From the IMG/VR virus record IMGVR_UViG_3300010413_000005, positions 1-64,000 of that record: DNA of 64,000 bases, one strand, 5' to 3'. The notes beneath the pieces were generated by a model. The model was not told where the DNA came from. It was given only the letters and a program-made list of their open reading frames with translations, and did not search any database. Positions 6,070-60,184 of this stretch are shown here, in pieces. Source of the stretch: a virus. The translations under genes were made by a program, and so were the position numbers. The stretch's first letter is position 1. Each line of letters opens with the position of its first letter.

Positions 6070-6257
6070 GCCATCCTCCTACTGAATCCGTAGGTCGCTT
6101 TTCCGAATCCGGCGCCGGTAGTCCGGAGGAGCGAAGCGACGATAACAATCCGGCGTATCAACGTGATAGTAACCGGTCGGATAGTTCCGGAGCTGAAACT
6201 ATTTCGAGTTGTAGATGGGAGGCACGTTGGCTGGGAGCTCAACGGGATGCAATGCGA

Positions 6258-6280
6258 TGTTTTATAATATTGTAAGCGCT
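6258..6280 (+). repeat. Iteron-like 23-bp repeat, copy a
   Basis: Core TATAATATTGTAAGCGCT, preceded by TGTTT. It covers the -10 box of a predicted leftward promoter, so a protein bound here should affect that promoter. Confidence 0.85.
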
Positions 6281-6297
6281 TCGTCGTTTATTTACAA
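6269..6297 (-). promoter_or_regulatory. Predicted leftward promoter overlapping an iteron
   Basis: The minus strand has TTGTAA (6292-6297), 17 bp, TACAAT (6269-6274). It would drive the leftmost genes from 6069 down. The -10 box lies within repeat copy a, implying regulation by whatever binds the repeat (inference). Confidence 0.5.
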
Positions 6298-6313
6298 AGT
6301 AAGTTGTGCGCGA

Positions 6314-6336
6314 TGTTTTATAATAATGTAAGCGGT
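6314..6336 (+). repeat. Iteron-like 23-bp repeat, copy b
   Basis: Core TATAATAATGTAAGCGGT: two changes from copy a. Same orientation, 56 bp further on. Confidence 0.8.
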
Positions 6337-6406
6337 GTAGGGTTGTTTTGGGGGTGGCTGGGCGTCGATAGTTGTGAAGTTGGTGAGTTGTCCCGTTTGT
6401 TAGCTT

Positions 6407-6429
6407 TGTTTTATAATATTGTAAGCGCC
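6407..6429 (+). repeat. Iteron-like 23-bp repeat, copy c
   Basis: Core TATAATATTGTAAGCGCC, identical to copy a except for the last base; same orientation, 93 bp after copy b. Confidence 0.85.
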
Positions 6430-6462
6430 CACTTCGGTATAAACAATATATATTGATAGATT

Positions 6463-6485
6463 TGTTTTATAATATTGTAAGCGCT
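6463..6485 (+). repeat. Iteron-like 23-bp repeat, copy d
   Basis: Core TATAATATTGTAAGCGCT, identical to copy a over all 23 bp. It lies 56 bp after copy c, the same spacing as between copies a and b. Confidence 0.85.
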
Positions 6486-7011
6486 TCGTTGACCGATAAT
6501 AGATAAAATAAAAATAGTTGGGGCGAAAAATGGTCATCTGCTGCACTGGTCACACACCAGCCAGCGAGAGCCACACCCCATCGGTTTTTGCCACAGTGGG
6601 GGATACGCCAACATATATTGGATAGGCAGTAGTCCTACGTCCCTTTGTCTATTGTCTATTATCCAACTTACATTGGTTATTCTATATATCGTAGTAGTTT
6701 ATATACGCTATTAGATATTATATTATATATCCAATATACTTTGATCGTCTGGTCGATGTGTTGTGTGTGTCCAGGGGTGGAAGTGTGCGCACACATGGTG
6801 TGTGGGGTGGCAAGCCAGCTATCCACGTATAGTAGATATATACAATCGACAATCGTAGTTCGAACAATCCGCAACCTATTCGAGATTCGAATAGGGCCGG
6901 AGTAATCAGTACGTCTATTCGTTCGTCTAGAATCTCGAGTTGTAGAGTATCCGGAAACGAATAATGTTCATTCTATAGAGAGAGAGTAGCTAACAAATAA
7001 AATCGTAGAAG

Positions 7012-7034
7012 GGCGCTTACATTATTATAATGCA
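7012..7034 (-). repeat. Iteron-like 23-bp repeat, copy e (inverted)
   Basis: The plus strand reads GGCGCTTACATTATTATAAT. Opposite orientation to copies a-d, on the far side of the A/T-rich block. Confidence 0.8.
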
Positions 7035-7053
7035 TACGTATATATAGGGGCAG

Positions 7054-7076
7054 GGCGCTTACATTATTATAAAACA
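7054..7076 (-). repeat. Iteron-like 23-bp repeat, copy f (inverted)
   Basis: The plus strand reads GGCGCTTACATTATTATAAA, then ACA. Same orientation as copy e, 42 bp away (about four helical turns). Confidence 0.85.
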
Positions 7077-7455
7077 TTTCTCCCTTATATAGAGCGATTC
7101 TCGTATAGGGCGTTATAGAGAAGGGCGCGTACGTTCCGGAGAAGGAGCGTATAGGGAGATTTGTATAGGGGTAGTTATCTCTCTCTCGGGAGATTCGGAT
7201 ATTTGTTTGTTTGTTTCACAGGGGAATTTTGGTGCCTACTCTTCGAGCGGCACCAGTGCGATTTCTCGCACCGATCGGCTAGGTGGCTATTTAGGTGTGG
7301 TTTAGGCAGCCTATATTGGAAAATTGGGCGATCTGCAATAGGGCGAAGTGGTGAAAATGTGTGTTTTTAGGCTTGTGGATTCTCGACATCCTACGGGACA
7401 CGCAAACACATTTTTGTGCGCTACGGCCACGATTTATTGGACGTTTTTTCGCGTT

Positions 7456-7478
7456 TGTTATAAAATAATGTAAGCGTA
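7456..7478 (+). repeat. Iteron-like 23-bp repeat, copy g
   Basis: TGTTATAAAATAATGTAAGC, then GTA. A diverged copy resembling the third copy in the initiator gene. It lies just past the 3' end of the gene at 7530. Confidence 0.7.
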
Positions 7479-7529
7479 TTTTAGGATGGAAATTTGTGAG
7501 TTTAGAGATGGGTAACTTTTGTTCCTACC

Positions 7530-33485: not shown

Positions 33486-34295
33486 TCAAATCTCCATAAG
33501 TGATAAAATGAATTTCGATAGCTTCGGACTTTTACTAGTGTTATCTCTACACCACTTATGAATTTTGTTGATCACCACCGTATCGTACCTTATATCTCCG
33601 GATATGTCGGCTGCTATCCATTCCCTGTCCAGGATGTTGTTGGGATACATTTTTGTAACGCGATTGAATACCCTGATTTCCTTCTCGTTGCCCAAATCGG
33701 ACACCCTCATCCGACCGGTCCTGATTAAGTATTCCGTCCAAACCAGATACGCGACTCCGTACGCGTCTGCCAAATCTTCGCTCGTTTGTCTATTCTGCTT
33801 CTTTCCCTTCTGCGGAAGATTGTATTGACTGAAATCGGCGCCCCAACGACTCAGAACGAACTCCTCCATCAAATCCTTCTTCGCGGTTCCGTCTCCGGTA
33901 ACGAACATCTTCACGGAACCGGGATCATGCAAACGGAACGGTATTCCGCTTCTCAAAAGACACATTCTGGCGACTCCTCCCAATTCGCCCTTGTGATGCG
34001 CTCCGTGAGAAGCGTCCAGCGCGTAATCTTCAACTCCGGCGAAATCTGGAGCATGGTCTCTGATTGTTTCTTCGAACCACAACAGGGCATTGTATAGACG
34101 CAACATATTGAACGTCTGATTGTCCTTCGATTTGTCCACGGTCAATCTATAGGCGTCTTTGTGTTTGGCAGCAGCTCCGGCCAAATCAGTGTAGTACGAG
34201 AACCAATTCAGTCCTCCGTCTTTCAGTTGAACGACCGCTCCGTGATTCAACCCCAAATCGTATCCGTTTACCAGTACGCTTTTTTCAATCTTCAT
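33486..34295 (-). CDS. RuvC-like Holliday junction resolvase
   Basis: RNase H-fold metal site: VNGYDLGLNHGAVVQL (Asp13), a VEDYALDASHGAHH Glu motif, and SEDLADAYGVAYLVW with the two C-terminal Asp. These match the four acidic residues of RuvC nucleases that cut four-way DNA junctions. At 269 residues it is longer than bacterial RuvC (~170), with a C-terminal basic extension. Fits with recombination genes next door (SbcCD-like, RecA). Confidence 0.75.
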   Translation of the reverse strand: MKIEKSVLVNGYDLGLNHGAVVQLKDGGLNWFSYYTDLAGAAAKHKDAYRLTVDKSKDNQTFNMLRLYNALLWFEETIRDHAPDFAGVEDYALDASHGAHHKGELGGVARMCLLRSGIPFRLHDPGSVKMFVTGDGTAKKDLMEEFVLSRWGADFSQYNLPQKGKKQNRQTSEDLADAYGVAYLVWTEYLIRTGRMRVSDLGNEKEIRVFNRVTKMYPNNILDREWIAADISGDIRYDTVVINKIHKWCRDNTSKSPKLSKFILSLMEI

Positions 34296-36370: not shown

Positions 36371-37539
36371 GCAGCCTCACTATCGTCGGATAGCGCTCGA
36401 GTCTGTTCCAACGCTTTCAAACCTATCGATTTCAATTTGGACGTGTCCAGACCGTCTGTATTCACGCCCTTGGAATCTACGTAATCCATTATCGCGCGCT
36501 CCGGCGAAGAGGACGCTTCACCTGCCGTTTGTTCCAGACGCGATTCGTGGTGGTATACTGGATCGTGTTTGTATTCCGCTCTGATTCCCTTGGACTTTAG
36601 TTCCTTGACGTGCTCTATCACGCCGGATTTGATTTTAGCCCATTCTGCGTGGGTAGCTTTCACTACGAATCTGACGTAATCCTTCTCCGCGAATTCCATT
36701 TTACCGGAGTATGAATTCCAATGTATTAGATGAAATTCGGGCATACCGGTTTTGATCTTTTTCCTCTTCAAACGACCGTCTTCGTAGAATTTCAGAAACC
36801 AAACGCACGATTCCCTTCCGACGTCGTCGAATCTGTGGTGCATAGGAGAACCGAGATAGAAACCCTTTCTCTTACCTTCATTCAAGAACGTCTGATGTTT
36901 ATGGAAGTGTCCTCCTATCACGTGATTGAAAGAAGTGGATATCTCCTCTACAGACAATCCTATATCGCAATTCCATCCGTAATGCTGGCAACCCAATACA
37001 CTATTGTGGAACAGCAAAACGTTTACTTTATCCTTGTGATTAGCGGATATCGATTCGCGATAGGATTCCAATATCGATCTGCTTTTCTCCAGAGAAGAGT
37101 ATTCCAAGTGCCAGAAATTCAACCAATTGGTAGGAGAAAACGGAACCTGGCTGTGCTCGAAACACATCACCTTGTTGTTTCCGTATTTGTACATCTCGGT
37201 CACGAATCGGCCGCCTTGGAGATTGTTGGCGTCGTGATTTCCCGGAATGAGATATACGAACGCCTTGCATTCGCTCAAACATTTCGAAGTCTCGGCTGCG
37301 GTTACTGCGTCCAATCTCGATACGTTGAATAGATCTCCTATTATGTGAAAATCCATCCATTTTTGTTTCGTACCGTATTTTTTCAAAATCAAATTGAATT
37401 TCTTCCACAACTCTATTTGATCATCCAAACGATCGGTCCGGCCTTCGTCGGTAGGTTTGGCGTGAGGAAGAAAATTCCCCATATGCAAATCGGCCGCAAA
37501 CAATCCCGAGTAAACACATTCTTCGGATTCAGATGCCAT
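36367..37539 (-). CDS. SbcD/gp47-like recombination nuclease
   Basis: Calcineurin-like phosphoesterase motifs in order: DLHMGN, GDLFNV, GNHDAN, FHNS and GGHFHKHQ, the di-metal site of Mre11-type nucleases. 390 residues, slightly larger than T4 gp47. Its stop overlaps the SbcC-like start (4 bases), as expected for a stoichiometric complex. Confidence 0.9.
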   Translation of the reverse strand: MASESEECVYSGLFAADLHMGNFLPHAKPTDEGRTDRLDDQIELWKKFNLILKKYGTKQKWMDFHIIGDLFNVSRLDAVTAAETSKCLSECKAFVYLIPGNHDANNLQGGRFVTEMYKYGNNKVMCFEHSQVPFSPTNWLNFWHLEYSSLEKSRSILESYRESISANHKDKVNVLLFHNSVLGCQHYGWNCDIGLSVEEISTSFNHVIGGHFHKHQTFLNEGKRKGFYLGSPMHHRFDDVGRESCVWFLKFYEDGRLKRKKIKTGMPEFHLIHWNSYSGKMEFAEKDYVRFVVKATHAEWAKIKSGVIEHVKELKSKGIRAEYKHDPVYHHESRLEQTAGEASSSPERAIMDYVDSKGVNTDGLDTSKLKSIGLKALEQTRALSDDSEAA

Positions 37540-38599
37540 ATTCCCATCCGTGTTTAGTTCTCAATTCACTGAGCAATTCGGAACGAAGTTGATCGTTTTC
37601 GTTCAACAATGCCACAGTGCTATCTATTCCATTAGCTAATCGGTCGTCTCCGCGCGAATACCACGCTCCGGAGCGCGTCAATATACCGTCCCTTTCACAT
37701 TGGACTATCAACGACCTGCTTTTGTCGAATCCCTGCCCGTATCTCACAACTACCGGCGCTTTTCTGAAAGGAGGGAATATCTGATTCTTGCGGATGTCCA
37801 CGATGGCATTGTGGGCTGTTTTCACGCCGTCTTCATCCTTCTCGCTACCGGTCGCGCGGCGAACGTAAGCGACGATTGTAGCGTGGTGTTTGGTAGCCCA
37901 ACCTCCGGATATCTCTTCCTTGTCCCCGTAGGCTACGCCGATCTTGGTTCTCACCTGAGATATGAATAGCAACGCCACATCTTCTTTGAATACCTTGGGC
38001 ATCACTTTGGGAAGATATCTCGAGAACGCTCCGGCCGCGTCTCCGATCTTCTCCACTCCGTATCCGGCCTCTATTTGCGCTTTGGTTTTGCAAGGGTTGA
38101 TAGAATCCAACACTATCAATATCGGTATTCGGCGCCCCTTGATTTCTCTTATCTTGCTGGCCCTCAGAGTTATTCCATCGATGAAAGAGAATATTCTCTC
38201 TATATCGTCCGGCTGCGAAATGATCAAATGATCGGTATCGACTCCGACTTGTTTGGCATAATCCGGATCAAGTTTGCATTCTTTATCGATGTAAACCGCC
38301 ACTCCGCCTAACGATTGTGTTTCTGAAACTATGTGCAGAGCCAACGTAGTTTTTCCGCTGGATTCGGCTCCATGTAATACGGTCAACCTTCCCAGTGGAA
38401 TACCTCCGCGACCCATGGCCGCGTCTACGGTTGCCAATTGGGTTCCAATTACGCCTCTCACTTTCATCTTGGCGTAATTGGAACCCAACACGTAAGCGTT
38501 GGATTCGTCGCCGGCCGCGGCCAGAATTTCTTCCAGAACGTTTTTGCCCGGCGACGAATCGGGTTTGCTTTGTGACTTCTTTTTATTGGATTTGGACAC
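37529..38599 (-). CDS. recA: RecA-type recombinase
   Basis: Walker A GAESSGKTT at 77-85, ILIVLDSINPC (Walker B region), VALLFISQVRTKIGVAYG, then a GGWATKHHA motif near the usual L2/DNA-binding loop. The protein is bacterial RecA-like rather than T4 UvsX-like. It promotes strand exchange for repair and recombination-dependent replication. The N-terminal ~20 residues are a basic, Ser-rich tail. GTG start. Downstream of SSB-like gene, upstream of SbcCD-like pair. Confidence 0.95.
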   Translation of the reverse strand: MSKSNKKKSQSKPDSSPGKNVLEEILAAAGDESNAYVLGSNYAKMKVRGVIGTQLATVDAAMGRGGIPLGRLTVLHGAESSGKTTLALHIVSETQSLGGVAVYIDKECKLDPDYAKQVGVDTDHLIISQPDDIERIFSFIDGITLRASKIREIKGRRIPILIVLDSINPCKTKAQIEAGYGVEKIGDAAGAFSRYLPKVMPKVFKEDVALLFISQVRTKIGVAYGDKEEISGGWATKHHATIVAYVRRATGSEKDEDGVKTAHNAIVDIRKNQIFPPFRKAPVVVRYGQGFDKSRSLIVQCERDGILTRSGAWYSRGDDRLANGIDSTVALLNENDQLRSELLSELRTKHGWEYGI

Positions 38600-40684: not shown

Positions 40685-43600
40685 CTATTTGTAGTTGTAA
40701 ATTTTCAAAGCTGTACCGCAGAAGTAACTCGTGCTTCTTCTTCGATCTGATTTCTTCTCTACTTCTACGGCTATCATCTTACCTATGGAAATGTGTTTGC
40801 TAATACTTCTCCAAGTGCTGGCAAAACTTATGATTTCTATGAGTTTTCCGTCCGCACTTATCAATCCTAAGAAGGCCATTTCATTGCCGTTCTTATCGTA
40901 TTTTTTTCGCACGTTAGTTACGATACCTGTATAAAATCCACCTTCTTTGGACTTATGAAATTTGTAATTGGTAGTTCTAATTTCCTTGATTTTGTCATTT
41001 TTCCATTTATAAGTAAGCGCCGGATGCTTTCCGGTGGCTATCAATTCCCAAACGTTCAATTGTTCCCAAGATTGTATTTTGGATCGAAGAGATTCCAAGT
41101 TTACAGCGAAATGCGCTTTCAGATTCTCGTATTTGGCGTTGGGAGTTACACAAGCGATTACCGGAGTGCCTATTCCCTTATCTATGATCGCTCTGTATTC
41201 ATCGAATACGTCGATATCGAACTTGGTCCGATACTGTTTTCCTCCCGGATCTTCCAAGTTGACGTTGGCGTAGCGCGCGCCCCAAAACATCTCTTTTCGT
41301 TCTCTTTCGGACGGCAAGTCTCCGGTGTGAAAGTCGCCTATTTGATTGTATTTGACTTCTACTATGACCGCGGCGACGATACATGCTTTATTCCCGTAAT
41401 CGGCGAAAAAGTCTTCATCACTCATAGAAACTATCGGCAATTTGATATTTTCTTCTATGAAGTCCTTGTACGCTTCTATGGGGTGCGTCCCGAGCGCTAG
41501 CGGATTCACTTCTGAAGAAATCAAACACAAATCTTCTTTTGAGTATTCTTCGGCGCCCTTCGCTTCTTCCAACATAGCGATGACGTCGGCATACTTCTTC
41601 TTAGCCACCAACGCCCAAATAGATTCCAGATTCTCTACCATCCATTTGACGCTGGGAACCATCCCCTCAAGAGCTCCGGCCTTGGACAGAGCCATAACGA
41701 CTCCTTTGTGGCATTTTCTCGCGTCGACTCTAGATATGAAATCCACGAAATCTTTGAATGGCTGATTGGCCATAATAGTATCTGCGGCCGCCGATCCGAC
41801 TCCTTTGATATCTATCAACGAACCTCTGATAGAACGATCGGCCGCGTCCATACTGAAATGCTTCTTGCTGACGTTGATATGCGGAGGTTTCAATTCTATT
41901 CCGTAATTTTTCTTGGCTGCTTTGGCCAATCTTTGTATCCGAACGCGCTCCGGTTCGTTCTTGAGCAACGCCCAATAGAACTCTAACGGATAATGTATCT
42001 TCAACCACATGGTCCAATAGCCTATCAACCCGTATTCGGTAGCGTGCGAATTGTGCGACACTACCGGAGGCGAATCCGGGCTGTGTCCCGCTACGAAATT
42101 GTGTCCTACGGAATCCATCTCCAAATCGTAACAATGCTCTTTACCGTTGGGCGTTATTTTGATTATTTTATCCGCGAAAGTAGGACGGCCCTTGCCCCAA
42201 CGCTTTGTCCTCTCTCCCTTTTCGTAATCCAATTTCTTGTGACAAGAATTGCACAACAAACGCAAATTGGCTTTGCTGTGAAAGGCGGCATGGTTGTAAT
42301 CGCATTCGGCTGGAGATTTGATGTGCGCCACTTCTCCGCCACCTCTGCCTTGGCGACAAATTGTACCGCAATTAGAACATCTGCTATCGGATTCTATCCA
42401 AACTTGCTCTACTTTCAATTTGTATTTGTCGTTGATACGATCCGCTTGGGCGAATCTGGTATCTTTGTTCATCCACCACGGACAATAATCCTTAGCGGTA
42501 TTTTCTCCCATAAACATCAATTCGTCGCCGACAGACAAGCCGGTAGCTATCGATTTGTACCCCCTAGAAGTCATCAACCTGTGCATTCGGCTGATGGCCG
42601 GAGTTTTGTTGCCGGATTCCGTTTCTATGACAAACGTTTCGCGAATGCCGTGATCATGTATTCCTATTAGACGTGCCGGCCGAACGCGCCCATCTTCGTC
42701 CATTTGCAAAAGATGTAATCGACCACCTCTTATCTTTTTCGCTATCGGAGTCAAACGTCCTTTTTCGTCTCTAGAATCTCTCAAACGAACCAACTCTCCG
42801 ATTTGTATTTGCGATTTAGAATGGCTATTAGCTCCTGGCTTCCAAACCCATGCGTTTTTACATATAGTCTTGTTAAATCCGTACGAGCCAAAAAATGTTA
42901 TCGCGTCCATTATCTTATTGGCAGTTTTCGCGTCGACTCCGGCGTGTTTAGCGGCGCCTTCAACGAACTTCGCGCGTTCTTTCCCCAAAGTCTCGTCGCC
43001 TATCTTCTTGGCTATCGTTTTGCGCAATGAATCCGCGGTTCCGGGAGCGAATCCGGCGATGTCTGTGAATATGCGTATAACGTGTTCTTGGTAAACTATG
43101 ATCCCCAACGTGTCCGATGTTATTTCCGATACCTTTGGGTGGAAGTCTACCTTTTTGGCCAACTTCGGATTCTTTTTGCGTTGTATGTACTTCGTAGCCA
43201 AGCCGGACCGAGCGGTCCCTGGTCTGTTCAACGCAGTCATGGCAGGTATGTCTTCGAAGTCGGTGAAGTTGATACCCATGCAAATCTTATCAGCGCTAGG
43301 CGTATCGTATTGGAAAATTCCGTCGTATTTGTGATCAGTGAATCCCTGTAGCGTTTCCGGATCGTTCAAATCGAAGTCGTCGGATTCCAAGTCCAATTTC
43401 TCTCCGGTATTCTCTTCGATCGCTTCCAAACATTCTTTGATGACGGTGAGAGTTCTCAAACCCAACACGTCTATTTTCACCAATCCCACCGCGGCGACGT
43501 TGTACATGTCGGTTGCTGTGACCACTACCGAATCGCCTCCGGATTCCGCTTTACGAACTTCCAACGGCAATAAATCGGTCAACGGGACCGGAGATGCTAC

Positions 43601-45322
43601 GACTCCGGCCGCGTGTATGCCCGGATTCTTAGCCAATCCTTCCAGGCTCTTGGCGTGATAGAGCACCTTTGGATATTTCTTATCGAATTTTCTACACACG
43701 TCGAAGTCTTTGAACGAATCGGCTATTGTCTGACTGGCGCGTTCGTCTCCGCTCGAACGCTCGATGATGCTTTTGGTTACTTGATTGACTTCCGACAACG
43801 GAACTTCCAAAACGCGAGAAACGTCCTTCAAACATTGTTTACCGGATAGTTTGCCCACGGTTGCGATCTGAGCCACTTTATCGCGCCCATACTTACTCAC
43901 CAAATATTCAAATATCTCTTGTCGTCTTCTGTCTTCGAAATCACAATCGATATCCGGCAAGTCGATACGATACGGATTCATGAATCTTTCGAATATCAAT
44001 CCGTGCTCCAGCGGATCGACAGAGGTTATTCCGAGCAAATATGCCACCAAACATCCTCCTACGGAACCGCGTCCTGGTCCGCACATGATTCCGGAGCTTC
44101 GAGCGAATTTGTACAAGTCTCTGATTATCAAGAAATACGGCACGAATTTCAATTTTACAATTGAACCCAATTCGTACTTCAACCTGTTTCCGTACGTCTG
44201 TATAGCGTCTTCGTAACTCACCCCGTTTTTGGCAGAGTATTTACGCGCTCGGGATTTGATATTCCTCCAAGCCCATCCTTCTAAACACAAATCTTTTAAA
44301 TAAGCTGTTTGATCTCCGCGATATTTATCAGGTACGGATAAGTCGGGCAACAAGGCTTGGTGGTAATCGACTTTGAATTCCACGTTACACATTTCTGATA
44401 ACTTCACAGTTGAATTCAAAGCTTCCTTGACGTCTGTTACGGAGAAAAACGGATGGTATTTGAAGAAAGCGGATTTCATTTCTTTCCGCTTTCTCATATG
44501 AAATTCGTTCCCGTCGAATTTGAATCTGTTCGGATCGCTCATGAAGTTATTCGTACCGATACACAACAAAACCTCGTGATGTTCGGAATCGCTCTGGTGT
44601 ACGTAGTGCGCGTCTTGTGTTGCCAACAGCCTATTGGACTTCCCGTATCTCTTGCGCAACTCGAGAGCGAATTTGTTGGCCGTCAATTGGTCCGGAATGT
44701 TGTGCGGTTGGACCTCAATCCACAGATTACTACCGAACTCATCTCTCAATCGATCGGCAAATTCGATCGCGAACCTTTTCTTACCCAGCACGCATGAATC
44801 GTATACCGGACTAGCCAGACATCCCGTGCCCAAACTGATTCCTTCTTTGTACTCGCACAAAGCTTCAAGATCGATTCTCGGTTTGTAATAAAATCCGTCG
44901 ATGTAAGCCGAACTGGACAGTCTGAATAGGTTCTTCAATCCCTCCGAGTTGTGCGCCCAAGCCGTTATGTGCCAGCGTTTTGATATGCCGTGTTTCTCTT
45001 CGTATTCCTTGATGACTTTCTTGGCTTCTGCTCCCTTCTTGCCTTCTGAAATCTCGTTCTTTTCCTCCGCGGTCAATCCCTTCCTGTGCATATTATTACA
45101 CACGTAAAATTCGATTCCGTATATCGGCTTCACGTCGGTTCCCTTGCACTCTTCGTATTGGTGCATATATCCGCGCATGGTTCCGTGATCGGTAAAAGCG
45201 ATCGCCGGATTGCCTCTTTGTTTGGCTTCTTCTACGTAGTCCTTGATTTTACTTCCACCATCCAAAGTAGAATTATCACTATGCGTGTGCAAGTGTACGA
45301 AGTCTTCTTTTTTATTTGGCAT
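40685..45322 (-). CDS. dnaE: DNA polymerase III alpha subunit (DnaE-type) with intein
   Basis: Extein of about 1274 residues. PHP domain starts VHLHTHSDNSTLDGG (His10, 12, 14); GPGRGSVGGCLVAYLLGIT precedes palm motif PDIDCDFEDRR (Asp457, 459, 461); fingers and thumb follow. The intein occupies 821-1091 between YGFNKTI and SHATEYG. A replicative polymerase of the bacterial C family for phage DNA synthesis; no intrinsic DnaQ exonuclease is seen. No sliding clamp or clamp loader is seen in this window, so host ones may be used or lie elsewhere. Upstream genes of the modification-like operon overlap it. Confidence 0.95.
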   Translation of the reverse strand: MPNKKEDFVHLHTHSDNSTLDGGSKIKDYVEEAKQRGNPAIAFTDHGTMRGYMHQYEECKGTDVKPIYGIEFYVCNNMHRKGLTAEEKNEISEGKKGAEAKKVIKEYEEKHGISKRWHITAWAHNSEGLKNLFRLSSSAYIDGFYYKPRIDLEALCEYKEGISLGTGCLASPVYDSCVLGKKRFAIEFADRLRDEFGSNLWIEVQPHNIPDQLTANKFALELRKRYGKSNRLLATQDAHYVHQSDSEHHEVLLCIGTNNFMSDPNRFKFDGNEFHMRKRKEMKSAFFKYHPFFSVTDVKEALNSTVKLSEMCNVEFKVDYHQALLPDLSVPDKYRGDQTAYLKDLCLEGWAWRNIKSRARKYSAKNGVSYEDAIQTYGNRLKYELGSIVKLKFVPYFLIIRDLYKFARSSGIMCGPGRGSVGGCLVAYLLGITSVDPLEHGLIFERFMNPYRIDLPDIDCDFEDRRRQEIFEYLVSKYGRDKVAQIATVGKLSGKQCLKDVSRVLEVPLSEVNQVTKSIIERSSGDERASQTIADSFKDFDVCRKFDKKYPKVLYHAKSLEGLAKNPGIHAAGVVASPVPLTDLLPLEVRKAESGGDSVVVTATDMYNVAAVGLVKIDVLGLRTLTVIKECLEAIEENTGEKLDLESDDFDLNDPETLQGFTDHKYDGIFQYDTPSADKICMGINFTDFEDIPAMTALNRPGTARSGLATKYIQRKKNPKLAKKVDFHPKVSEITSDTLGIIVYQEHVIRIFTDIAGFAPGTADSLRKTIAKKIGDETLGKERAKFVEGAAKHAGVDAKTANKIMDAITFFGSYGFNKTICKNAWVWKPGANSHSKSQIQIGELVRLRDSRDEKGRLTPIAKKIRGGRLHLLQMDEDGRVRPARLIGIHDHGIRETFVIETESGNKTPAISRMHRLMTSRGYKSIATGLSVGDELMFMGENTAKDYCPWWMNKDTRFAQADRINDKYKLKVEQVWIESDSRCSNCGTICRQGRGGGEVAHIKSPAECDYNHAAFHSKANLRLLCNSCHKKLDYEKGERTKRWGKGRPTFADKIIKITPNGKEHCYDLEMDSVGHNFVAGHSPDSPPVVSHNSHATEYGLIGYWTMWLKIHYPLEFYWALLKNEPERVRIQRLAKAAKKNYGIELKPPHINVSKKHFSMDAADRSIRGSLIDIKGVGSAAADTIMANQPFKDFVDFISRVDARKCHKGVVMALSKAGALEGMVPSVKWMVENLESIWALVAKKKYADVIAMLEEAKGAEEYSKEDLCLISSEVNPLALGTHPIEAYKDFIEENIKLPIVSMSDEDFFADYGNKACIVAAVIVEVKYNQIGDFHTGDLPSERERKEMFWGARYANVNLEDPGGKQYRTKFDIDVFDEYRAIIDKGIGTPVIACVTPNAKYENLKAHFAVNLESLRSKIQSWEQLNVWELIATGKHPALTYKWKNDKIKEIRTTNYKFHKSKEGGFYTGIVTNVRKKYDKNGNEMAFLGLISADGKLIEIISFASTWRSISKHISIGKMIAVEVEKKSDRRRSTSYFCGTALKIYNYK
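42050..42862 (-). other. HNH-containing intein in the DNA polymerase
   Basis: A 271-residue intein: Cys1 (CKNAWVWKPG, block A), block B with GNKTPAISRMHRLM (His), an HNH nuclease CSNCGTICRQG, HIKSPAECDYNHAA and NLRLLCNSCHKKLD, blocks F/G ending VVSHN before Ser+1. All splicing residues (Cys1, block-B His, His-Asn, Ser+1) are present, so it should splice. The nuclease may make it mobile. The N-extein ends GFNKTI where a plain GFNK would be expected next to SHATEYG; the extra TI may be part of the insertion site. Confidence 0.9.
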
Positions 45323-51209: not shown

Positions 51210-52209
51210 CTGAAAGCTTTTTTACCAGTTGTGAATACCAAGTCACGTAATCTGACACATATTTCCAAGTGTATTCAGCTCCTGAAACACCTCCTGTAAT
51301 CAAATTGTATTTACCCTCTAAAACCAAAGTCTTATGAATCTTTCCCTTCTTCAAGAACAGTACCGCTCCCCAATGGTAGTAATGAACCTCTCTCGCCCAT
51401 TCTCCGGCCGATTGGATATCCCTGGCCGGATCGTTAGGTCTGGGATCAAGATTGCGTTTCTTGATTATCTTTCTGACGAAATCGTAATCGAATTTGTTAT
51501 TCTTGCTTAGGTGTATCATGGGCCAAGTACCCTTGTCTATATATATCTGTGATATCTCGGGAAATTCTGATTCTGCCAGATACGTAAACGCCCTCCTGAT
51601 TCGTAGGCTGGAATAGTCGACCGCGTTCTTGCTCACACCGATATACTTGGCTATCAATCCGTTGGTCATCTCGGATTCGCCTTCGTTGTCCATGAAAATC
51701 ATGAACGCCTCCGGTGGATGACACATGATATCCAAAACGGTCCGATCTCGTTCGCACAACTTGTTTCTCAATTTCATTTTCAATTCCAGGCGACGCTGGT
51801 TGTCTTCGGATTGTTCGTAAACGGAATACGGATCCGGGATGTCTCCCTTGATAGTTTCTCCGGATTGCTCGGCCATCTCTTCTATCGAGACTAACTGCCA
51901 AGCCTGTTTGGAAACTATCATCCGTCCGTTTCTTTCTTGAACTACGTGCGGAACCTTGGAATTGGTCATAGAATTCTGTATTATTCTTATGGCTTCGTAT
52001 CTCAAAACCTTACTGACGAATCTGTGGAATTTACCTCTTCCGGCGTTGAAATCGTACGAATCGAAACACCTCTGAAACATGGCCACGCGCAATTCTTGCA
52101 TTGCGTCGTCGAACGGGATACCGGAAGCGATGTTGATTTTTCTAGCGTGCGTTTTCAGAATTGGCCATACGTGCTTTTCCAAATCCGCGTACAATTCTTG
52201 TAAAACCAT
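51181..52209 (-). CDS. Divergent sigma70-family factor
   Basis: IPFDDAMQELRVAMFQRCFDSYD and FHRFVSKVLRYEAIRIIQNSM resemble sigma region 2 (core binding, -10 recognition). ERDRTVLDIMCHPPEAF then GLIAKYIGVSKNAVDYSSLRIRRAF fits region 4 with a helix-turn-helix. No region 3 is obvious; a ~120-residue C-terminal extension is unique. It may program late transcription while the RpoD-like factor at 16.8 kb serves another stage (inference). Start at 52209 behind AAAAAGGGAGATCGAA. Confidence 0.7.
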   Translation of the reverse strand: MVLQELYADLEKHVWPILKTHARKINIASGIPFDDAMQELRVAMFQRCFDSYDFNAGRGKFHRFVSKVLRYEAIRIIQNSMTNSKVPHVVQERNGRMIVSKQAWQLVSIEEMAEQSGETIKGDIPDPYSVYEQSEDNQRRLELKMKLRNKLCERDRTVLDIMCHPPEAFMIFMDNEGESEMTNGLIAKYIGVSKNAVDYSSLRIRRAFTYLAESEFPEISQIYIDKGTWPMIHLSKNNKFDYDFVRKIIKKRNLDPRPNDPARDIQSAGEWAREVHYYHWGAVLFLKKGKIHKTLVLEGKYNLITGGVSGAEYTWKYVSDYVTWYSQLVKKLSDARKQKKVP

Positions 52210-53824
52210 TTCGATCTCCCTTTTTACCGAACAACTTCTTTCCCAGACCACTGTACAAAGCCAAGGGTAAATCATCCAATTTCATTATCGCGGAACAAAC
52301 GGCTCCGGTTTTCTGATTGTAAAATGCGGCCACATCTATAGTAAGCACGCCTATGGATATCACTTCTATTCCGGATTTCGTTATCGTTTCCACAGATTCA
52401 GCCAAATGGTTGGCTAAAATACCACTGTCGCATCCGTACGCCAAGGGCGCTCCGTCCGACAATACAATCAACACTTTGCGCTTTTCTTGTCGCACTATCA
52501 AACGTTTAGCAGCAGACAAAATCGCTTCTCCGTCCGCGTTATCCATGTATCCGTCGATGAAAGAGAATCTACTTCTGCACACATTTAGTCTTTCATCGAA
52601 TTCCTTGAATACTATGTAATCGAACGGCGCTCGAGCCTGATATATCTCGTCTTCGAAGTTGATTCCCTTCGGATATCTTTCCACATTGTTGTGAAATCCC
52701 AATACTTCAAACGGGATTCCCAATCTCTCTATGGTGTCGGATAATCCTACGGCGGATACTCTTACGTGCCAAGCCTTGGTCTTTTTCTTTTTCGCCTTGC
52801 CCATGGAACCGGACAAGTCAATCAAAATCAATATCGCTGTTGAAGTATCGACCGGAGCTCCGCGTTCATAATGCACGTTTCGATTACCGGTTATGACCGA
52901 ATGTAGAGAAGAAGAATCCAGAAATCCGCTATCTCGGTCGCCGATCGGAGCGCGTTCCTTTTCCGCTCTCATTGTTTCGATAATCGCCCTGCGCATCGCC
53001 GAAGCATTCTTCTTCGTTTCTGACAAGTCGGATACGAACGTGGACGCGTTTCCGGTAGTCGGTTTCACCCAACGGTCCATGGCCAAACAATCCGGATGCG
53101 GAATGTATCTGCCATTCTTCAACACGTCGTTCTTTGATTCCTGTTCGATTTTGTCTTTCAATCGCGATTTGAAATCGAAAGATTGCTCTCCGGCCGGAGG
53201 GATGAACGAAATCATAGGAGATATCTTCTTGGCCAATTCGTATGTACTTTCGGAATCGGCAAGCGATTTCACAGACAAAAACATCTCAGATATCGGTTCG
53301 TATTCGGATCTAACGTGATCCGGAATCCACCTCAAATCCAGATTCAACCCGTCGGATATCGCTGCGCACAAAAGCATTTTGAAGTCGGACAATTCTCCGG
53401 CCTTGGATTGCTTCTCTAACAACTTCGACGCCTCATTGTTGGAGAAATCCAGATTGTCTTTCATTCCCGGATAAATCGCGCCGTATTTCAATTCTATTCT
53501 GATGTCTTCCAAAGCGTTGAATGCCGACTTCACTTTCACGTCGGATTCGTTTTTGTACAGATCTACGGCGCCCCTCAAACCGCGATTCTTGGAATACACT
53601 TCTTCGGCCGCGTGACACAATTCGTGATCCAGTTCTCCGTTCAACGCGCGCATTGAGGACTTGCCCAGTTTGTCCGAATTGTAAGGCAATCTTATCACGG
53701 TTCCGTCGAAATCACAACGGCATCCGGTCATTTCCACTGATACGTGGTAATTGTTCGATATCGCGCGCGCTATGTTAGCGAACGGAGTCTCCAGCTTCCG
53801 GAGGTGTTGAACAGATTTTTTCAA
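52142..53824 (-). CDS. CobT-like VWA protein with HEXXH motif
   Basis: The C-terminal half has a von Willebrand A fold: ILILIDLSGSMGKA (MIDAS Asp336, Ser338, Ser340) and VLIVLSDGAPLAYG. The N-terminal half has DHELCH (His67-Glu68-His71), a zinc-protease-like motif, and acidic helices. It pairs with the MoxR-type ATPase directly upstream, as CobS/CobT or MoxR/VWA pairs do to remodel a target. TTG start behind GGAGGAACTAC. Function unknown in phage. Confidence 0.8.
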   Translation of the reverse strand: MKKSVQHLRKLETPFANIARAISNNYHVSVEMTGCRCDFDGTVIRLPYNSDKLGKSSMRALNGELDHELCHAAEEVYSKNRGLRGAVDLYKNESDVKVKSAFNALEDIRIELKYGAIYPGMKDNLDFSNNEASKLLEKQSKAGELSDFKMLLCAAISDGLNLDLRWIPDHVRSEYEPISEMFLSVKSLADSESTYELAKKISPMISFIPPAGEQSFDFKSRLKDKIEQESKNDVLKNGRYIPHPDCLAMDRWVKPTTGNASTFVSDLSETKKNASAMRRAIIETMRAEKERAPIGDRDSGFLDSSSLHSVITGNRNVHYERGAPVDTSTAILILIDLSGSMGKAKKKKTKAWHVRVSAVGLSDTIERLGIPFEVLGFHNNVERYPKGINFEDEIYQARAPFDYIVFKEFDERLNVCRSRFSFIDGYMDNADGEAILSAAKRLIVRQEKRKVLIVLSDGAPLAYGCDSGILANHLAESVETITKSGIEVISIGVLTIDVAAFYNQKTGAVCSAIMKLDDLPLALYSGLGKKLFGKKGDRNGFTRIVRGFGKARMANSENAR

Positions 53825-54936
53825 GTAGTTCCTCCGAAATGTCTCTGTACCAATCCGCCTACGAAAACGGAATCCGAAGCGTCCATCTTATTCAATATGG
53901 TGATTCGCGCCGCTCGAGTTACATCTTTCAGTTTCAAATTTTTGCGCGACCATTCGATCAACGACCGAGTTGAAATGGACGAATAGCAATCTCCTCTACT
54001 GCAAGACTCTCTAACCATGTTGGCCAATCTGACCATCTTGGTCGCCGTTCGGTCGTCTATTCCCTTACACCGCTTCATCAATATGGATTTTTCCACTTTC
54101 GGACTCGGGAACGTCATATATATCACGACTCCGAACCGATCGACGAATGACTCTTTTTGAGGCAAATCATTACATGTAGCGATGATTCTGAAATTGGGAT
54201 CGAATTCGATCGATCTGCCTCCGTCTCCGGTGATTACCAGCTGGCGAGGTTTGGTCATGGCGGTGTACAACGAAAACGATATGTGTCCGGGCATCGCTTC
54301 GACTTCTTCCAACAGTAGCCAATAACCGCGATCGGCCGATATCGGTAGCGAACCGTCAAACCATTCGGTTTTTGATTGCCCGGTCTTCTTGTCGATGGTC
54401 ACACCCTTTTCTCCGATGAATTCGGCTTTGCGCATATCCCCATCGTTTTGTACCCTCAATACCGGTTGATTGCAGATCGAAGCCAACTCCATAACCAGGG
54501 TGGATTTACCGACTCCGACCGGTCCGTGTATCAGAACATTGTCGTCATCTTCGATTCCCAAAGACAACTCCTCAAGATGACCCGCTTCTCGATCTGATAT
54601 GATCCATTCCGGATCATGTATCGGAACCATTTTGGAATCTCTCTCCGAGAGCTCTCTTTTGAAAGAAGGACTCGCAGCCCCTATTCTGAATACTGTAAAA
54701 GATGATCCGGTTCCCGGATCGACTCCGATTATGTTATGGCGACTTGCCTCTTTGCGCAATTGGTGCGCTGCGTCGCTGACCGTCGGAGCTCCGGGATACT
54801 TGTTCAGATACGCGATGACGTCCATATCGTGTTTCTTGTTCACGTGGACGTCTAATCGATGATACCATTGTCCGCATTCTTTACACTGTATTTTTTTGCG
54901 GCCTTTTCCGTCAATGCTGCTAGTAGGATCTCCCAT
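53821..54936 (-). CDS. MoxR/CobS-like AAA+ ATPase with N-terminal zinc-finger-like domain
   Basis: CKECGQWYHRLDVHVNKKH (18-36) is a C2H2-like knuckle, followed by a MucR-like DVIAYLNKYPGAP helix. The AAA+ core has GPVGVGKST (Walker A), YWLLLEEVEAM (Walker B), FRIIATCNDLPQ (sensor 1) and FVDRFGVVIYM (Arg finger region). Partner of the VWA gene. It directly follows promoter P6 with nearly no 5' leader. Confidence 0.85.
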   Translation of the reverse strand: MGDPTSSIDGKGRKKIQCKECGQWYHRLDVHVNKKHDMDVIAYLNKYPGAPTVSDAAHQLRKEASRHNIIGVDPGTGSSFTVFRIGAASPSFKRELSERDSKMVPIHDPEWIISDREAGHLEELSLGIEDDDNVLIHGPVGVGKSTLVMELASICNQPVLRVQNDGDMRKAEFIGEKGVTIDKKTGQSKTEWFDGSLPISADRGYWLLLEEVEAMPGHISFSLYTAMTKPRQLVITGDGGRSIEFDPNFRIIATCNDLPQKESFVDRFGVVIYMTFPSPKVEKSILMKRCKGIDDRTATKMVRLANMVRESCSRGDCYSSISTRSLIEWSRKNLKLKDVTRAARITILNKMDASDSVFVGGLVQRHFGGTT

Positions 54937-56317: not shown

Positions 56318-56535
56318 TTCTTATCCCTGGCTATCCATGTGCGCAATTCTCTGCCGACCAATTCGGTGGCTTCCGTGTATCCGAATCCGCCTCTTTCCGC
56401 GATTCGTTCGGCGCTTTGTCCGCAATGATATTTCTTATCATAAGCCAACCAAATTTCCAAATGCTCTTCCCAAGAAATGGTTCCTCTCGGATGTCCGTTT
56501 TCAGCCTGTATCGGTGCACGTTTTTGTTCGCTCAT
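56314..56535 (-). CDS. Small HTH-like protein (73 aa)
   Basis: SAERIAERGGFGYTEATELVGRELRTWI looks like a helix-turn-helix, as in short DNA-binding or terminase-small-like proteins. Weak evidence. Overlaps the helicase and the 108-residue gene. Confidence 0.45.
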   Translation of the reverse strand: MSEQKRAPIQAENGHPRGTISWEEHLEIWLAYDKKYHCGQSAERIAERGGFGYTEATELVGRELRTWIARDKK

Positions 56536-57932
56536 CTTCTGTCCTCAACTTCCTTCTCCCGGATTCTCATCTTGTGATATTCAGCGAGCGCCGGAACGAT
56601 CTTGCCGGATTCTCCGTCGCGATGTTTCGCTATGAACAAATCGAGCGCTTTCTCCGGTCCTTCTTCCGGAGCTTCAAATTCCTCGTCAATCTCTTCGTCG
56701 TCTTCGGTGACCTTGACTTCTTTCTTCCTGTTCTGTTTGCCGTAATCCGGATCGTTCACGCTGATAATCAAGTCGGCAATTCGAGCCTTGTCGTAGCTTT
56801 CGGCCGTCCCTTCAGCCATAGCCGTTTTATCAGCCCACTGAGAACCAGCGTGAACGCTGGAATATATGGCGTATCCTTCGTCTTCTCCTAACCCCTTGGC
56901 TCTCCAATAAACCTCAGATTGCTGCAGCCGAAATTTCTCTCCTCTCATATTCGTGGCCAATATGTGATCCAACGAATCGAAACAAATCAACTTCGGCCGC
57001 CAACCGTCGAATTGTTCTTTCAAATCCTCCAAAAGCGTAATCACGTCTTCGAACGTTGCGGACCGGACCGGGAACGAGGCGATTTTCAATTTGTTATTGA
57101 ACTTCTTGGCCATCTTTTTGTAGCGCTTATCGATGGCTCGAGCGTCCTGCGGTGTGAGATTGTAACCCTTCAAATCCTTGTAGTTCATTCCCAACCACAA
57201 AGCATCAGCTCGAGTCGCGACCTGGCGCGCCGGCATTTCGAACGGTATCACAAGAGTCTCATATCCCTGCTTTATCGAGTGGTACGCCAGATTGTTGAGA
57301 GCGATCGATTTGCCTTTACCGGTCGTTCCCATTATCAGACCCAACTCTCCTATTCGCAACCCCTTTGTTATATTGTCTATCGTCTTCCATCCGGTCATTA
57401 TCGCTGTTACTTCGTCCGGATGTTCTCTTTCGTATTTTCTGGCGTCTTGACGATCGTAAAACTCCTCTACCCAATTGATCAGAGTGTACTTTCTCTCCTC
57501 AACTTTCTTTTTGCTGGCTTCTCCGAAAACCTTGTAAACGTCGTCCAAGTCTCCGTCTTCGAGATGTTTTGCCCCCTGTTCCAAAGCCAGCTGCGCGTTT
57601 ACATACAAAACGAATTTCTTCAATCGCTCGAGCGCCAATTTCGGATTATCCGCGCGTTTCTTGGCTATCCTCTTCACCGCTTGCAGATGGGATAGTCTCT
57701 CCTCTTGTTTCCTGCGGAAGTTCTCCTTGGCTATGGCCATGTACATTTTCGGAGTCGGAGTCTCTCCGAATTGCGTCAAAGAGTATCTCAACACGCTCCA
57801 AATCCAAGAGCGCTCCTTGCTTCCGAAATGATGAGCGTCGCAGATCCGGATGGCCTGTTTCGCGTACGCCTTGTCGCGCATCGCACAAGCTAAGATGGTT
57901 TCTTCAAACTCTTTATCGAACTTACGATCCAT
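56532..57932 (-). CDS. DnaB-like replicative helicase
   Basis: N-terminal helical domain (~1-150), linker helix, then a RecA-like motor: ELGLIMGTTGKGKSIALNNLAY (Walker A), LVIPFEMPARQVATRADAL, LICFDSLDHILA (Walker B), VHAGSQ and an Arg-containing ending. The C-terminal tail is rich in Glu (EDDEEIDEEFEAPEEG). Hexameric 5'-3' helicase of the replication fork, loaded by the DnaC-like protein encoded directly upstream. Confidence 0.9.
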   Translation of the reverse strand: MDRKFDKEFEETILACAMRDKAYAKQAIRICDAHHFGSKERSWIWSVLRYSLTQFGETPTPKMYMAIAKENFRRKQEERLSHLQAVKRIAKKRADNPKLALERLKKFVLYVNAQLALEQGAKHLEDGDLDDVYKVFGEASKKKVEERKYTLINWVEEFYDRQDARKYEREHPDEVTAIMTGWKTIDNITKGLRIGELGLIMGTTGKGKSIALNNLAYHSIKQGYETLVIPFEMPARQVATRADALWLGMNYKDLKGYNLTPQDARAIDKRYKKMAKKFNNKLKIASFPVRSATFEDVITLLEDLKEQFDGWRPKLICFDSLDHILATNMRGEKFRLQQSEVYWRAKGLGEDEGYAIYSSVHAGSQWADKTAMAEGTAESYDKARIADLIISVNDPDYGKQNRKKEVKVTEDDEEIDEEFEAPEEGPEKALDLFIAKHRDGESGKIVPALAEYHKMRIREKEVEDRR

Positions 57933-58596
57933 TATATCCCATAGATTTGGACATTTCTGTTGCTTCTTTGGTTCTGTAATCTCCTCCTAACATTTCCACT
58001 GTTTTATATTTCCCAGTAAGCATTGAGCTGATCGTCGGACCGTACGATTCACGCAGATCCTTTTCACTGAGATTGGAAGCCAACAACGTAGGGAAAGCGT
58101 TGTCGTATCTGTTCTTCAACAGAGCTTCCAAACGAGAAGCCAAGAACCCACTTTTCGAAGTGTGCTCTTTGCCCAGCTCGTCTATGAACAGAAAATCGGA
58201 GTTCAAACAATATCGCAACAGTTCGGCCGCGACCGGACTGTCGAATCCGATTTTGATATTGGTATCCAAATCGCTCAAAGTGGTGTAATAAATCCTGTAC
58301 CCTACTCGGACCGCTCTTCCCAAGATGTAACAGCCGAACATGGTTTTTCCGTTGCCGTTATCGCCCACGAATAGCAATCCGTATCCATTGTTGTACGCTC
58401 TGTGTAGTTTATTCTTGTATTTGAGCACTACCGACTGAAAGATATCCACGTTGTGTGTGACGTCCGACGATTTGACGTACCAATGAATCGATGGAACACA
58501 ACCCCTGTAAAGAGCCAAGTCGTATCTGTGTTTTGAGTTCTTCAGGTTGTATTTTCTGTCCATCGCGAACGATAGGACTTCGCTATCACTTCTCAT
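57922..58596 (-). CDS. DnaC/IstB-like helicase loader
   Basis: LLFVGDNGNGKTMFGCYIL (Walker A), SDFLFIDELGKEHTS (Walker B) and a short sensor TLLASNLSE. The 224-residue AAA+ core fits DnaC/lambda-P-like loaders. Gene order initiator, loader, helicase is like a lambdoid replication module. ATG at 58596 behind AGGTGATTCGA, slightly overlapping the initiator gene. Confidence 0.85.
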   Translation of the reverse strand: MRSDSEVLSFAMDRKYNLKNSKHRYDLALYRGCVPSIHWYVKSSDVTHNVDIFQSVVLKYKNKLHRAYNNGYGLLFVGDNGNGKTMFGCYILGRAVRVGYRIYYTTLSDLDTNIKIGFDSPVAAELLRYCLNSDFLFIDELGKEHTSKSGFLASRLEALLKNRYDNAFPTLLASNLSEKDLRESYGPTISSMLTGKYKTVEMLGGDYRTKEATEMSKSMGYNGS

Positions 58597-60184
58597 TCGA
58601 ATCACCTAGGTTTTTCACCGCCCAATTGACAATCGGACGCAATGTCGGAGACATAAATATCTTATTTCCGTTACGCACGCTGTCTGCCATACTCTGAATC
58701 GTCGCCAAAAAACGGTCGCTGTACAACGTCGAATCCAACCCCAATGATCTTATGCCTTCGCGCAATCGCTCGTCTAGCGAATTCGTATCTGCGAATGTAT
58801 TTTTGATTTTTTCCCTTGGTTTATCGCTCTTTTTGCGTTTATCCAGATTGGCGCAAGCCACCTGGTCTATCATCGCCGGAGACTTGAGTATGGACACCGG
58901 AGGTATGGTCAAGCCTTTTCTCGCGAAGGAGCCTATATGTTCGTGCCAATACTCGAGAACTTGCCGCGGAGTCACCCCCTTCTCGATGCACAACACTCCG
59001 GCCTCTTCCGCATATGACTTCTCCTTGTCTGGAAGCACAGAAGGAAACGAGATCGGCCGGCCCTGCGATACTTCGGCCGCGCGGCGATACCGGACGTAGA
59101 TTCTCGAGAACTCCACTCCCAGTTTGGCGATCAGTTTCTTGCGTGAGTTGTCACGTTTCGATTTGCTCAATATCCGGAGCATGCGCGGTCGCTCTTTGCT
59201 GTTCGGATCGAACGACACGCTCGGGTGTCCCCTCTGGTCCAGATTCTCGAAGCGAATTTCTTTACCTCGACGCAAGTCGAGTTCGGCAACTTGTTGCCGA
59301 AGGTTTCTCCTCCCAGAATCAGCACGTTTCTTCTCCGAAGAAACGAGTACTTTAAATTTGTTTAAATTTAATTTACTTAAATTACTTAAATTTAAATTAG
59401 TTAAATTAGGGGATCCAAGGGGAGCGACTTTAGTCCCTTCCGAGTTGTTTTCAGATTGTTTGTTTTCAACAACTCGATTCGTTTGTTGTAAGTATCCGTC
59501 TTCTTTGGTGAATTTCCTTCTTTTTATCAATTTTTCTTCAACTTTTATTGTATTCCGAATTGTTGATAAATCGCCAGATAGTAAATACAAATTATCTTGA
59601 TTATTAGTGGTTATATTTTCTATTAGCATTGAATTGTTGTCGTATGTTTTATAATGATGTAATCGATCGCGTAATACGCAAACATAAAATTGTCCCGCGT
59701 AATCATAATAAGTTGTATTTGCAGGTTGTGTATTTCCTTTATAATATTGTAAGCGCTTCGATTGTAAAATCAATTCGGATAACGTGACGGCGCTTACATT
59801 ATTTTCTAACATGAAATTTGACAATCTAGTGACCGCGTATCCGCTCTTGATCATCAATTTTCTCTCCACTACGACTTCAGTAGGTTTGCCAGATCCGTGT
59901 GGAATGAAACTGATGTAATTCTTGCGCTCGAGTTCTCTCAATATCTGATTGCTACGACGTTGTGAATACTCCAACTTGTGTGCCAACGCCGTACGTCCGG
60001 ACTTCAACGTCTTGGAGTCGTACGTCAAAAGTTTCATCCACACTGCTAGCGCCGGACACGATAACTCTTCACAAGCGGTTTCGATATCGGCCGGACCTTC
60101 CCAAGGAAACAATTCTTTCGTAGCTTTGAAACGCGTTCCGGAGGAATGTTTCGTAGTGGAAAGTATGGGAATGTGTTTTTTCAT
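58586..60184 (-). CDS. Lambda-O-like replication initiator with origin inside the gene
   Basis: Residues ~35-90 form a winged-helix-like domain (CPALAVWMKLLTYDS, TALAHKLEYSQRRSNQILRELERKNYISFI), typical of phage O/DnaD-type initiators. The region for residues ~124-180 holds three iterons; ~258-278 is an A/T-rich block coding for Asn/Leu. The C-terminal half has basic segments and REXXEYWHEH-like helices for loader contact (inference). ATG at 60184 lacks a ribosome-binding site and follows a strong hairpin; a GTG at 60226 is an alternative start. Confidence 0.7.
   Translation of the reverse strand: MKKHIPILSTTKHSSGTRFKATKELFPWEGPADIETACEELSCPALAVWMKLLTYDSKTLKSGRTALAHKLEYSQRRSNQILRELERKNYISFIPHGSGKPTEVVVERKLMIKSGYAVTRLSNFMLENNVSAVTLSELILQSKRLQYYKGNTQPANTTYYDYAGQFYVCVLRDRLHHYKTYDNNSMLIENITTNNQDNLYLLSGDLSTIRNTIKVEEKLIKRRKFTKEDGYLQQTNRVVENKQSENNSEGTKVAPLGSPNLTNLNLSNLSKLNLNKFKVLVSSEKKRADSGRRNLRQQVAELDLRRGKEIRFENLDQRGHPSVSFDPNSKERPRMLRILSKSKRDNSRKKLIAKLGVEFSRIYVRYRRAAEVSQGRPISFPSVLPDKEKSYAEEAGVLCIEKGVTPRQVLEYWHEHIGSFARKGLTIPPVSILKSPAMIDQVACANLDKRKKSDKPREKIKNTFADTNSLDERLREGIRSLGLDSTLYSDRFLATIQSMADSVRNGNKIFMSPTLRPIVNWAVKNLGDSNEK
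59351..59408. other. A/T-rich block inside the initiator gene (candidate unwinding element)
   Basis: Nearly all A and T over 58 bp, with repeated TTTAAATT and ACTTAAATT units (for example TTACTTAAATTACTTAAATT). It lies 236 bp from the nearest iteron copy. In lambda, an A/T-rich stretch beside the O-gene iterons is where the helix opens. It encodes a Leu/Asn-repeat linker. Confidence 0.55.
59645..59667 (+). repeat. Iteron-like repeat in initiator gene, copy h
   Basis: TGTTTTATAATGATGTAATC then GAT: three or so changes from the noncoding copies. Read in the antisense direction of the gene. Confidence 0.7.
59735..59757 (+). repeat. Iteron-like repeat in initiator gene, copy i
   Basis: TTTATAATATTGTAAGCGCT preceded by TCC; 21 of 23 positions equal copy a. 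It also continues with TCG as copies a and d do, which is hard to explain by coding need alone. Confidence 0.8.
59789..59811 (-). repeat. Iteron-like repeat in initiator gene, copy j (inverted)
   Basis: The plus strand reads GGCGCTTACATTATTTTCTA. Opposite orientation to copies h and i, and most similar to copy g of the noncoding region. Confidence 0.75.

Follow-up and report, generated by a model that had tools for sequence, protein, structure and literature searches.

The satellite phage P4 uses one initiator, the alpha protein, at two separate regions, ori1 and crr, which lie a few kb apart; alpha is a primase-helicase and not a winged-helix initiator. In phage lambda, ori is contained in gene O: the initiator has an N-terminal DNA-binding domain, the iterons are in the part of the gene that encodes its linker, and AT-rich DNA follows them. 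We know of no second O-binding cluster in lambda. In phage SPP1, gp38 (G38P) binds the direct repeats of oriL, which is located inside its own gene, as well as those of oriR, which lies at a distance of 12-13 kb in a long stretch of intergenic DNA. Forks that stall at oriR have been proposed to start concatemer synthesis (PMC6316719, PMC3485210). The role of oriR is known largely from this one phage, and how circle replication gives way to concatemers is known for few phage systems. In ICP1, the pac site falls within 1.3 kb of gene-free DNA that is separate from the early origin, and a late rolling-circle origin has been proposed there as well (PMC7145576).

Here we analysed a locus in an uncultured phage that resembles SPP1 in several respects. 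Direct repeats together with AT-rich DNA occur twice, inside the initiator gene and in a long intergenic region far from it; the initiator, the helicase loader and a DnaB-type helicase are encoded together; and a recombinase, an exonuclease and a Holliday-junction resolvase are present. In contrast to SPP1, the two sets of sites are ~53 kb apart instead of 12-13 kb, and a third cluster is found at an early operon. The repeats within the initiator linker, followed by AT-rich DNA, are as in lambda. The proposed action of one initiator at two separate regions would be a likeness to P4. A large gene-free region away from the early origin is shared with ICP1, whereas shared initiator iterons are not described for ICP1 in the part of that account on which we draw (PMC7145576).

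The distal repeat cluster and its surroundings

The phage contig (G000) is 113,818 bp long, and a terminal repeat of ~144 bp gives a circular map of ~113.7 kb. The window, that is the whole stretch analysed, comprises its bases 1-64000; positions below are those of the window unless the contig or another genome is named. The minus strand carries 146 of the 149 genes called, and the gene set is that of a tailed phage, with a DnaE-type polymerase, a DnaB-like helicase, a loader and a sigma factor. Genes for a UvsX-like recombinase, a RuvC-like resolvase, an exonuclease, an SbcC-like protein and a UvsW-like helicase provide a recombination-dependent replication set. We found no close DNA relative of the contig in the phage collection, and a search by capsid alignment for a prophage or host match found none. 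The repeat TGTTTTATAATAWTGTAAGCGC is present in seven copies at 6258-7477, in ~1.4 kb of noncoding DNA. The features of this region and two of the recombination genes are:

6070-7529, no strand: large noncoding region between leftward genes; codon-usage gene calling finds no coding-like frame
6258-6279, plus strand: distal iteron copy 1, exact core match
6314-6335, plus strand: distal iteron copy 2, 56 bp past copy 1
6407-6428, plus strand: distal iteron copy 3
6463-6484, plus strand: distal iteron copy 4, 56 bp past copy 3
6643-6743, no strand: AT-rich segment, 77% AT, among the top three AT-rich 100-bp windows of the contig
7013-7034, minus strand: distal iteron copy 5, inverted
7055-7076, minus strand: distal iteron copy 6, inverted, 42 bp past copy 5
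7456-7477, plus strand: distal iteron copy 7, diverged, two core mismatches
33486-34295, minus strand: RuvC-like Holliday junction resolvase (phrog_159, 2e-17)
37529-38599, minus strand: UvsX-like recombinase (phrog_97, 1.6e-55)

When up to three mismatches to the core TTATAATAWTGTAAGCG were allowed, the window contained 10 sites compared to 0.26 expected, and 0 of 100 shuffles reached 10. All seven distal copies listed by the sequence-only reading are present where it had placed them, far above chance, and their distance from the copies in the origin-like gene, which it had put at 50 kb, is ~53 kb. The same reading had counted four direct and two inverted copies; the 56-bp pairs and the 42-bp inverted pair are as it described, but the set consists of five direct and two inverted copies. 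It had also seen an A/T-rich segment with long inverted repeats. The AT-rich segment (6643-6743) is real and is a possible unwinding element, but the inverted repeats in the region are modest (16 nt at 88% and 20 nt at 80%). Finally, one copy had been said to cover the -10 box of a leftward promoter (6297-6269). The copy does overlap a promoter-like -10, but this detail is weak because the promoter exists solely as a consensus match (9/12; 7 such sites compared to 3.3 ± 1.6 expected). Rfam returned nothing useful for the noncoding region. A large noncoding region is also present in relatives, within a variable early interval.

The repeat is shared with the initiator gene and a third cluster

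We trained a position matrix on the seven distal copies alone and ran it across the whole 113.8-kb contig. Outside the distal cluster the matrix found seven matches (16.7-30.8 bits), three in the linker of the initiator gene and four in a third cluster, while the next match scored 10.5 bits and the maximum in 30 simulated genomes was 17.1. The two weakest of these matches (17.0 and 16.7) are individually near noise, as judged from the simulated maximum; the other five are clear. The sites in the linker are:

59645-59666, plus strand: linker iteron 1, diverged
59735-59756, plus strand: linker iteron 2, exact core
59790-59811, minus strand: linker iteron 3, matrix match

The third cluster is located outside the window, at contig 109235-109433, and three of its four copies are in a 21-bp tandem. 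Most outside matches were intergenic, though the genomes are ~90% coding. In a joint 8/9-mer test, the contig scored above all random window pairs, and for two relatives, G001 and G016, 1 of 58 random pairs was higher. The proposal that an origin-like gene has a site in common with a distant regulatory region is strongly supported, as five related genomes show this with four distinct repeat types.

The layout recurs in relatives that have other repeats

Relatives were found via the initiator, helicase and capsid proteins and make up an uncultured phage family with genomes of ~105 kb. An exact iteron search of viral contigs for close relatives returned single-copy contigs only. G001, G016, G030 and G031 each have a repeat of their own, present in 10-15 copies in one large noncoding region, and in all four the layout also takes in the DNA between the DNA-binding and C-terminal domains of the initiator. 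In five genomes, then, repeats of the initiator gene recur in a distant noncoding region, and four distinct repeat types are found among them. In G001, 10 sites of the repeat TAACCCWATTACCCTA are spread over a 1.6-kb noncoding region; two weaker ones (37851 and 37864) fall in the gap between the reading frames of the two initiator domains, and a third set is at 102.4-102.9 kb (102452 and 102868). A matrix trained on the distal sites of G001 gave the initiator gap and the third set as its four best outside matches, all intergenic, with scores (13.5-18.6) that overlap the simulated maximum of 17.9. The initiator and the distal cluster are separated by 54 kb in G001 and by 53 kb in G000, and in both the third set is ~10-11 kb from the distal cluster. 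In G016, where the repeat TTCACAYAGTTACCCG provided 15 training sites in a 1.8-kb noncoding region, the distal-trained matrix placed the initiator gap (5916, 5937 and 5958) among the best matches, together with 48517, 33337 and 67102. The repeat of G031 is close to that of G016; 10 copies are in the noncoding gap and 3 just outside it, the linker copies are at 1214, 1234 and 1255, and one further copy is at 44792. In G030, 12 copies of the repeat GTCACACACTTGC are found in a 3.1-kb noncoding region. The linker has three more, all exact and spaced by 21 bp (71883, 71904 and 71925), and outside the noncoding region these three were the only matches to the seed word with at most one mismatch.

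What we observed, then, is that a motif is shared, that the sharing is specific and that the same layout recurs with other repeats. Since the layout is kept as the repeat changes, inherited old DNA does not account for the arrangement and a shared binder does. Chance or simple DNA inheritance seems, from these comparisons, an unlikely source of the two-place layout.

When seven proteins (fewer in fragments) were concatenated and the tree was rooted at its midpoint, the shared-iteron genomes fell into one group with G007, G009 and G029. Two of these, G007 and G029, are only fragments; G029 carries a linker array and a single site in the noncoding stretch at the end of its contig. G009 has five iterons in the linker and none elsewhere. 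In the sister clade, G002 has private linker repeats, shared repeats were absent from G002 and G006, and those in G008 and G012 were marginal. The sequence-only reading had stated that its interpretation would be refuted if relatives lacked the repeats while their replication was unchanged, and half of this is what we found: in G009 and the sister clade the initiator and the replication module are similar, and there are no clear distal copies. The distal copies are therefore a feature of the clade and not a replication requirement of the family.

A second element in the noncoding region

The noncoding region also contains a different recurring element:

6510-6602, minus strand: element starting CCCCCACTG, then a possible stem-loop; the 9-mer recurs in relatives

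In gene direction, this element was present in the large noncoding region of the contig and of G001 (92998), G002 (41629), G006 (83339), G009 (7610), G012 (45456) and G016 (~47398), with a version in G001 and G016 that begins CCCCACTG. In G008 it is located just past an 883-bp gap, inside a predicted gene (84512), and it was not seen in G030 or G031. The sequence after the element is stem-loop-capable, and the stems differ among genomes. Folding z-scores ranged overall from -0.4 to -5.4; the fold of the window copy is not significant alone (z about -1.4). On sequence grounds the element is unproven as a conserved RNA, and it may be a packaging or replication signal.

The initiator and the origin-like features of its linker

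The genes and the AT-rich DNA at the other end of the shared arrangement are:

56532-57932, minus strand: DnaB-like replicative helicase (phrog_19, 3e-52)
57922-58605, minus strand: DnaC-like helicase loader (phrog_50, 1.1e-29)
58586-60184, minus strand: replication initiator (O-like), with an AlphaFold2 model and orthologues in relatives
59348-59407, no strand: AT-rich run in the initiator gene, 92% AT over 60 bp, the contig maximum, downstream of the linker iterons

The AlphaFold2 model of the initiator consists of a winged helix (residues 30-112, pLDDT ~74-89), a disordered linker (113-274) and a helical C-terminal domain (275-530); the placement of the domains relative to one another is not meaningful because the overall pTM is 0.33. 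The iterons encode residues ~124-180, within the linker, so that the predicted protein has the lambda O-type order of N-terminal winged helix, iteron-encoded disordered linker and C-terminal domain. Foldseek matches of the model to MarR and RepA-type winged helices had E values no better than 0.15, the DNA-binding domains of the relatives' initiators match HTH_Crp_2 and HTH_36, and tblastn with the initiator against 50,697 phage records gave no match. Initiator, loader and helicase genes are adjacent in the contig, and this order, which is also that of SPP1, is conserved in relatives. Unlike in lambda, the DNA-binding and C-terminal domains are separate reading frames in G001, G007, G008, G012 and G030. 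In such split-initiator genomes, origin-like DNA either separates the two frames or is located at the end of the first.

Each of the three repeat clusters adjoins one of the contig's three most AT-rich 100-bp windows (chance for three random AT peaks ~3e-5, an estimate uncorrected for the choice of the test afterwards). AT-rich DNA is thus present beside both the linker and the distal set in G000, and it is found beside the distal cluster in G001 as well. In G016 and G031, AT-rich DNA is beside the linker only, and the distal cluster is less origin-like there because it is not notably AT-rich. GC skew in gene direction rises at the linker, and the largest rise is within 1.5 kb of the linker in G000, G002 and G008 and farther away in other genomes; structural and early genes differ in composition, which limits what GC skew alone says about replication polarity. 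Taken together, the lambda/SPP1-like gene order, the predicted winged helix with its disordered linker, the AT-rich DNA and the skew rise in several genomes support the origin-like character that had been ascribed to this gene. By analogy, the linker array beside AT-rich DNA looks like that of lambda or SPP1 oriL.

Candidate binding proteins and possible functions of the distal locus

The initiator is the likely binder of the iterons, and a single phage protein, which is most likely this one, probably acts at both loci in a way similar to SPP1. Another candidate is a double-HTH protein of 170-185 aa, encoded in G000 at contig 105845-106402 (minus strand), upstream of the terminase module; it is a possible late regulator or alternative binder. 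The repeats would then be operators of a phage regulator, most plausibly this one, with further sites in the initiator gene and the noncoding region. The protein is clade-specific: six genomes of the shared-iteron clade have it (G000, G001, G016, G030, G031 and G009), and none of the sister-clade genomes tested yielded it. Iteron-like sites are located directly upstream of its gene in G016 (67102) and G031 (44792) and head its operon in G000 (the third cluster) and G001 (102452 and 102868). However, G009 has the protein and yet has sites in the initiator linker only, G030 has the protein and no site at its promoter, and G002 has linker repeats although the protein was not found there. Moreover, 21-bp phased arrays between the two domains of an initiator are typical of initiator iterons. 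The operator explanation is the main rival, which we consider unlikely.

The initiator as the binder and every functional step that follows we infer. The phage's own initiator (58586-60184) would bind the repeats as iterons. The linker copies in its gene and the adjoining AT-rich DNA would form the primary origin, like lambda ori or SPP1 oriL, and the distal cluster, in noncoding DNA little under half a genome away, would be a second initiator-binding locus. This locus could be a second (late) origin, or the nucleoprotein complex on it could block and stall forks and so lead to recombination-dependent concatemer replication. Through further sites that head an early operon, the same protein may also control transcription. 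On balance, the comparisons with relatives and with SPP1 lead us to favour, by a modest degree of belief, a second initiator-binding locus that works like oriR, with initiator-bound iterons and a primary origin in the linker; given the initiator as binder, an oriR-like role gets most weight.

The initiator could also bind the distal and third clusters mainly for control of early transcription, by repression or activation, and not for replication. In G000 and G001, sites of the third set precede gene starts by ~60-125 bp, most outside matches are intergenic, and one distal copy overlaps the promoter-like -10. But an operator would not need 10 or more sites in both orientations, and the region has few promoter-like matches, whose number exceeds chance by only about two standard deviations. 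We judge a mainly transcriptional role rather improbable. A promoter-only reading was set aside because of the mixed orientation, the copy number and the weak promoter matches. Still less probable, in our judgement, is that the distal cluster titrates or handcuffs the initiator and limits initiation, like plasmid inc iterons: distal sites do outnumber linker sites in every shared-iteron genome examined, and looping would join the clusters, but copy control is of little use in the one-way amplification of a phage, and titration does not require the AT-rich DNA found beside the distal cluster in G000 and G001. It is equally hard to see the noncoding region as primarily a packaging site or rolling-circle start, as in the gene-free space of ICP1, with the iterons secondary. 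The CCCCCACTG element is present in this region in both clades, including genomes without shared iterons, which would suit such a function; yet it was not found in the iteron-rich G030 or G031, and the terminase genes are ~20 kb away on the circle.

An extension of the oriR-like explanation, which we offer as a speculation with little weight, is that initiator and iterons evolve in step at two or three distant loci and that the phage encodes a fork trap of its own in the distal locus, which is ~37-47% of the circle away from the origin. The initiator would then double as the replication terminator that switches theta replication to concatemer synthesis, and the site heading the pre-late-gene operon would tie late expression to replication. 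With natural initiator-iteron pairs, four repeat types, a conserved two-place layout and genomes without distal copies, this lineage allows direct tests of what a second initiator-binding locus does.

Other features of the genomes

The DnaE-type polymerase (40685-45322) contains an insertion of ~260 residues with an HNH match that ends HN before Ser. The insertion is absent from G001, and G002 has one at a nearby but different point; the two look like inteins at adjacent sites. Within the replication module, a CobT-like VWA protein (52142-53824) is paired with a CobS-like ATPase (53821-54936), and this pair was found in 3 of 3 relatives compared. In G016 (IMGVR_UViG_3300043353_000042), CGTTGAAGCGA is present in ~17 copies at ~32-44 kb and 57-61 kb, in places roughly every 400-800 bp. 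In the window, TACCTTTTCAAACC occurs five times on one strand (3331, 4732, 4773, 5754 and 21083, plus strand) and is a possible leader or promoter element.
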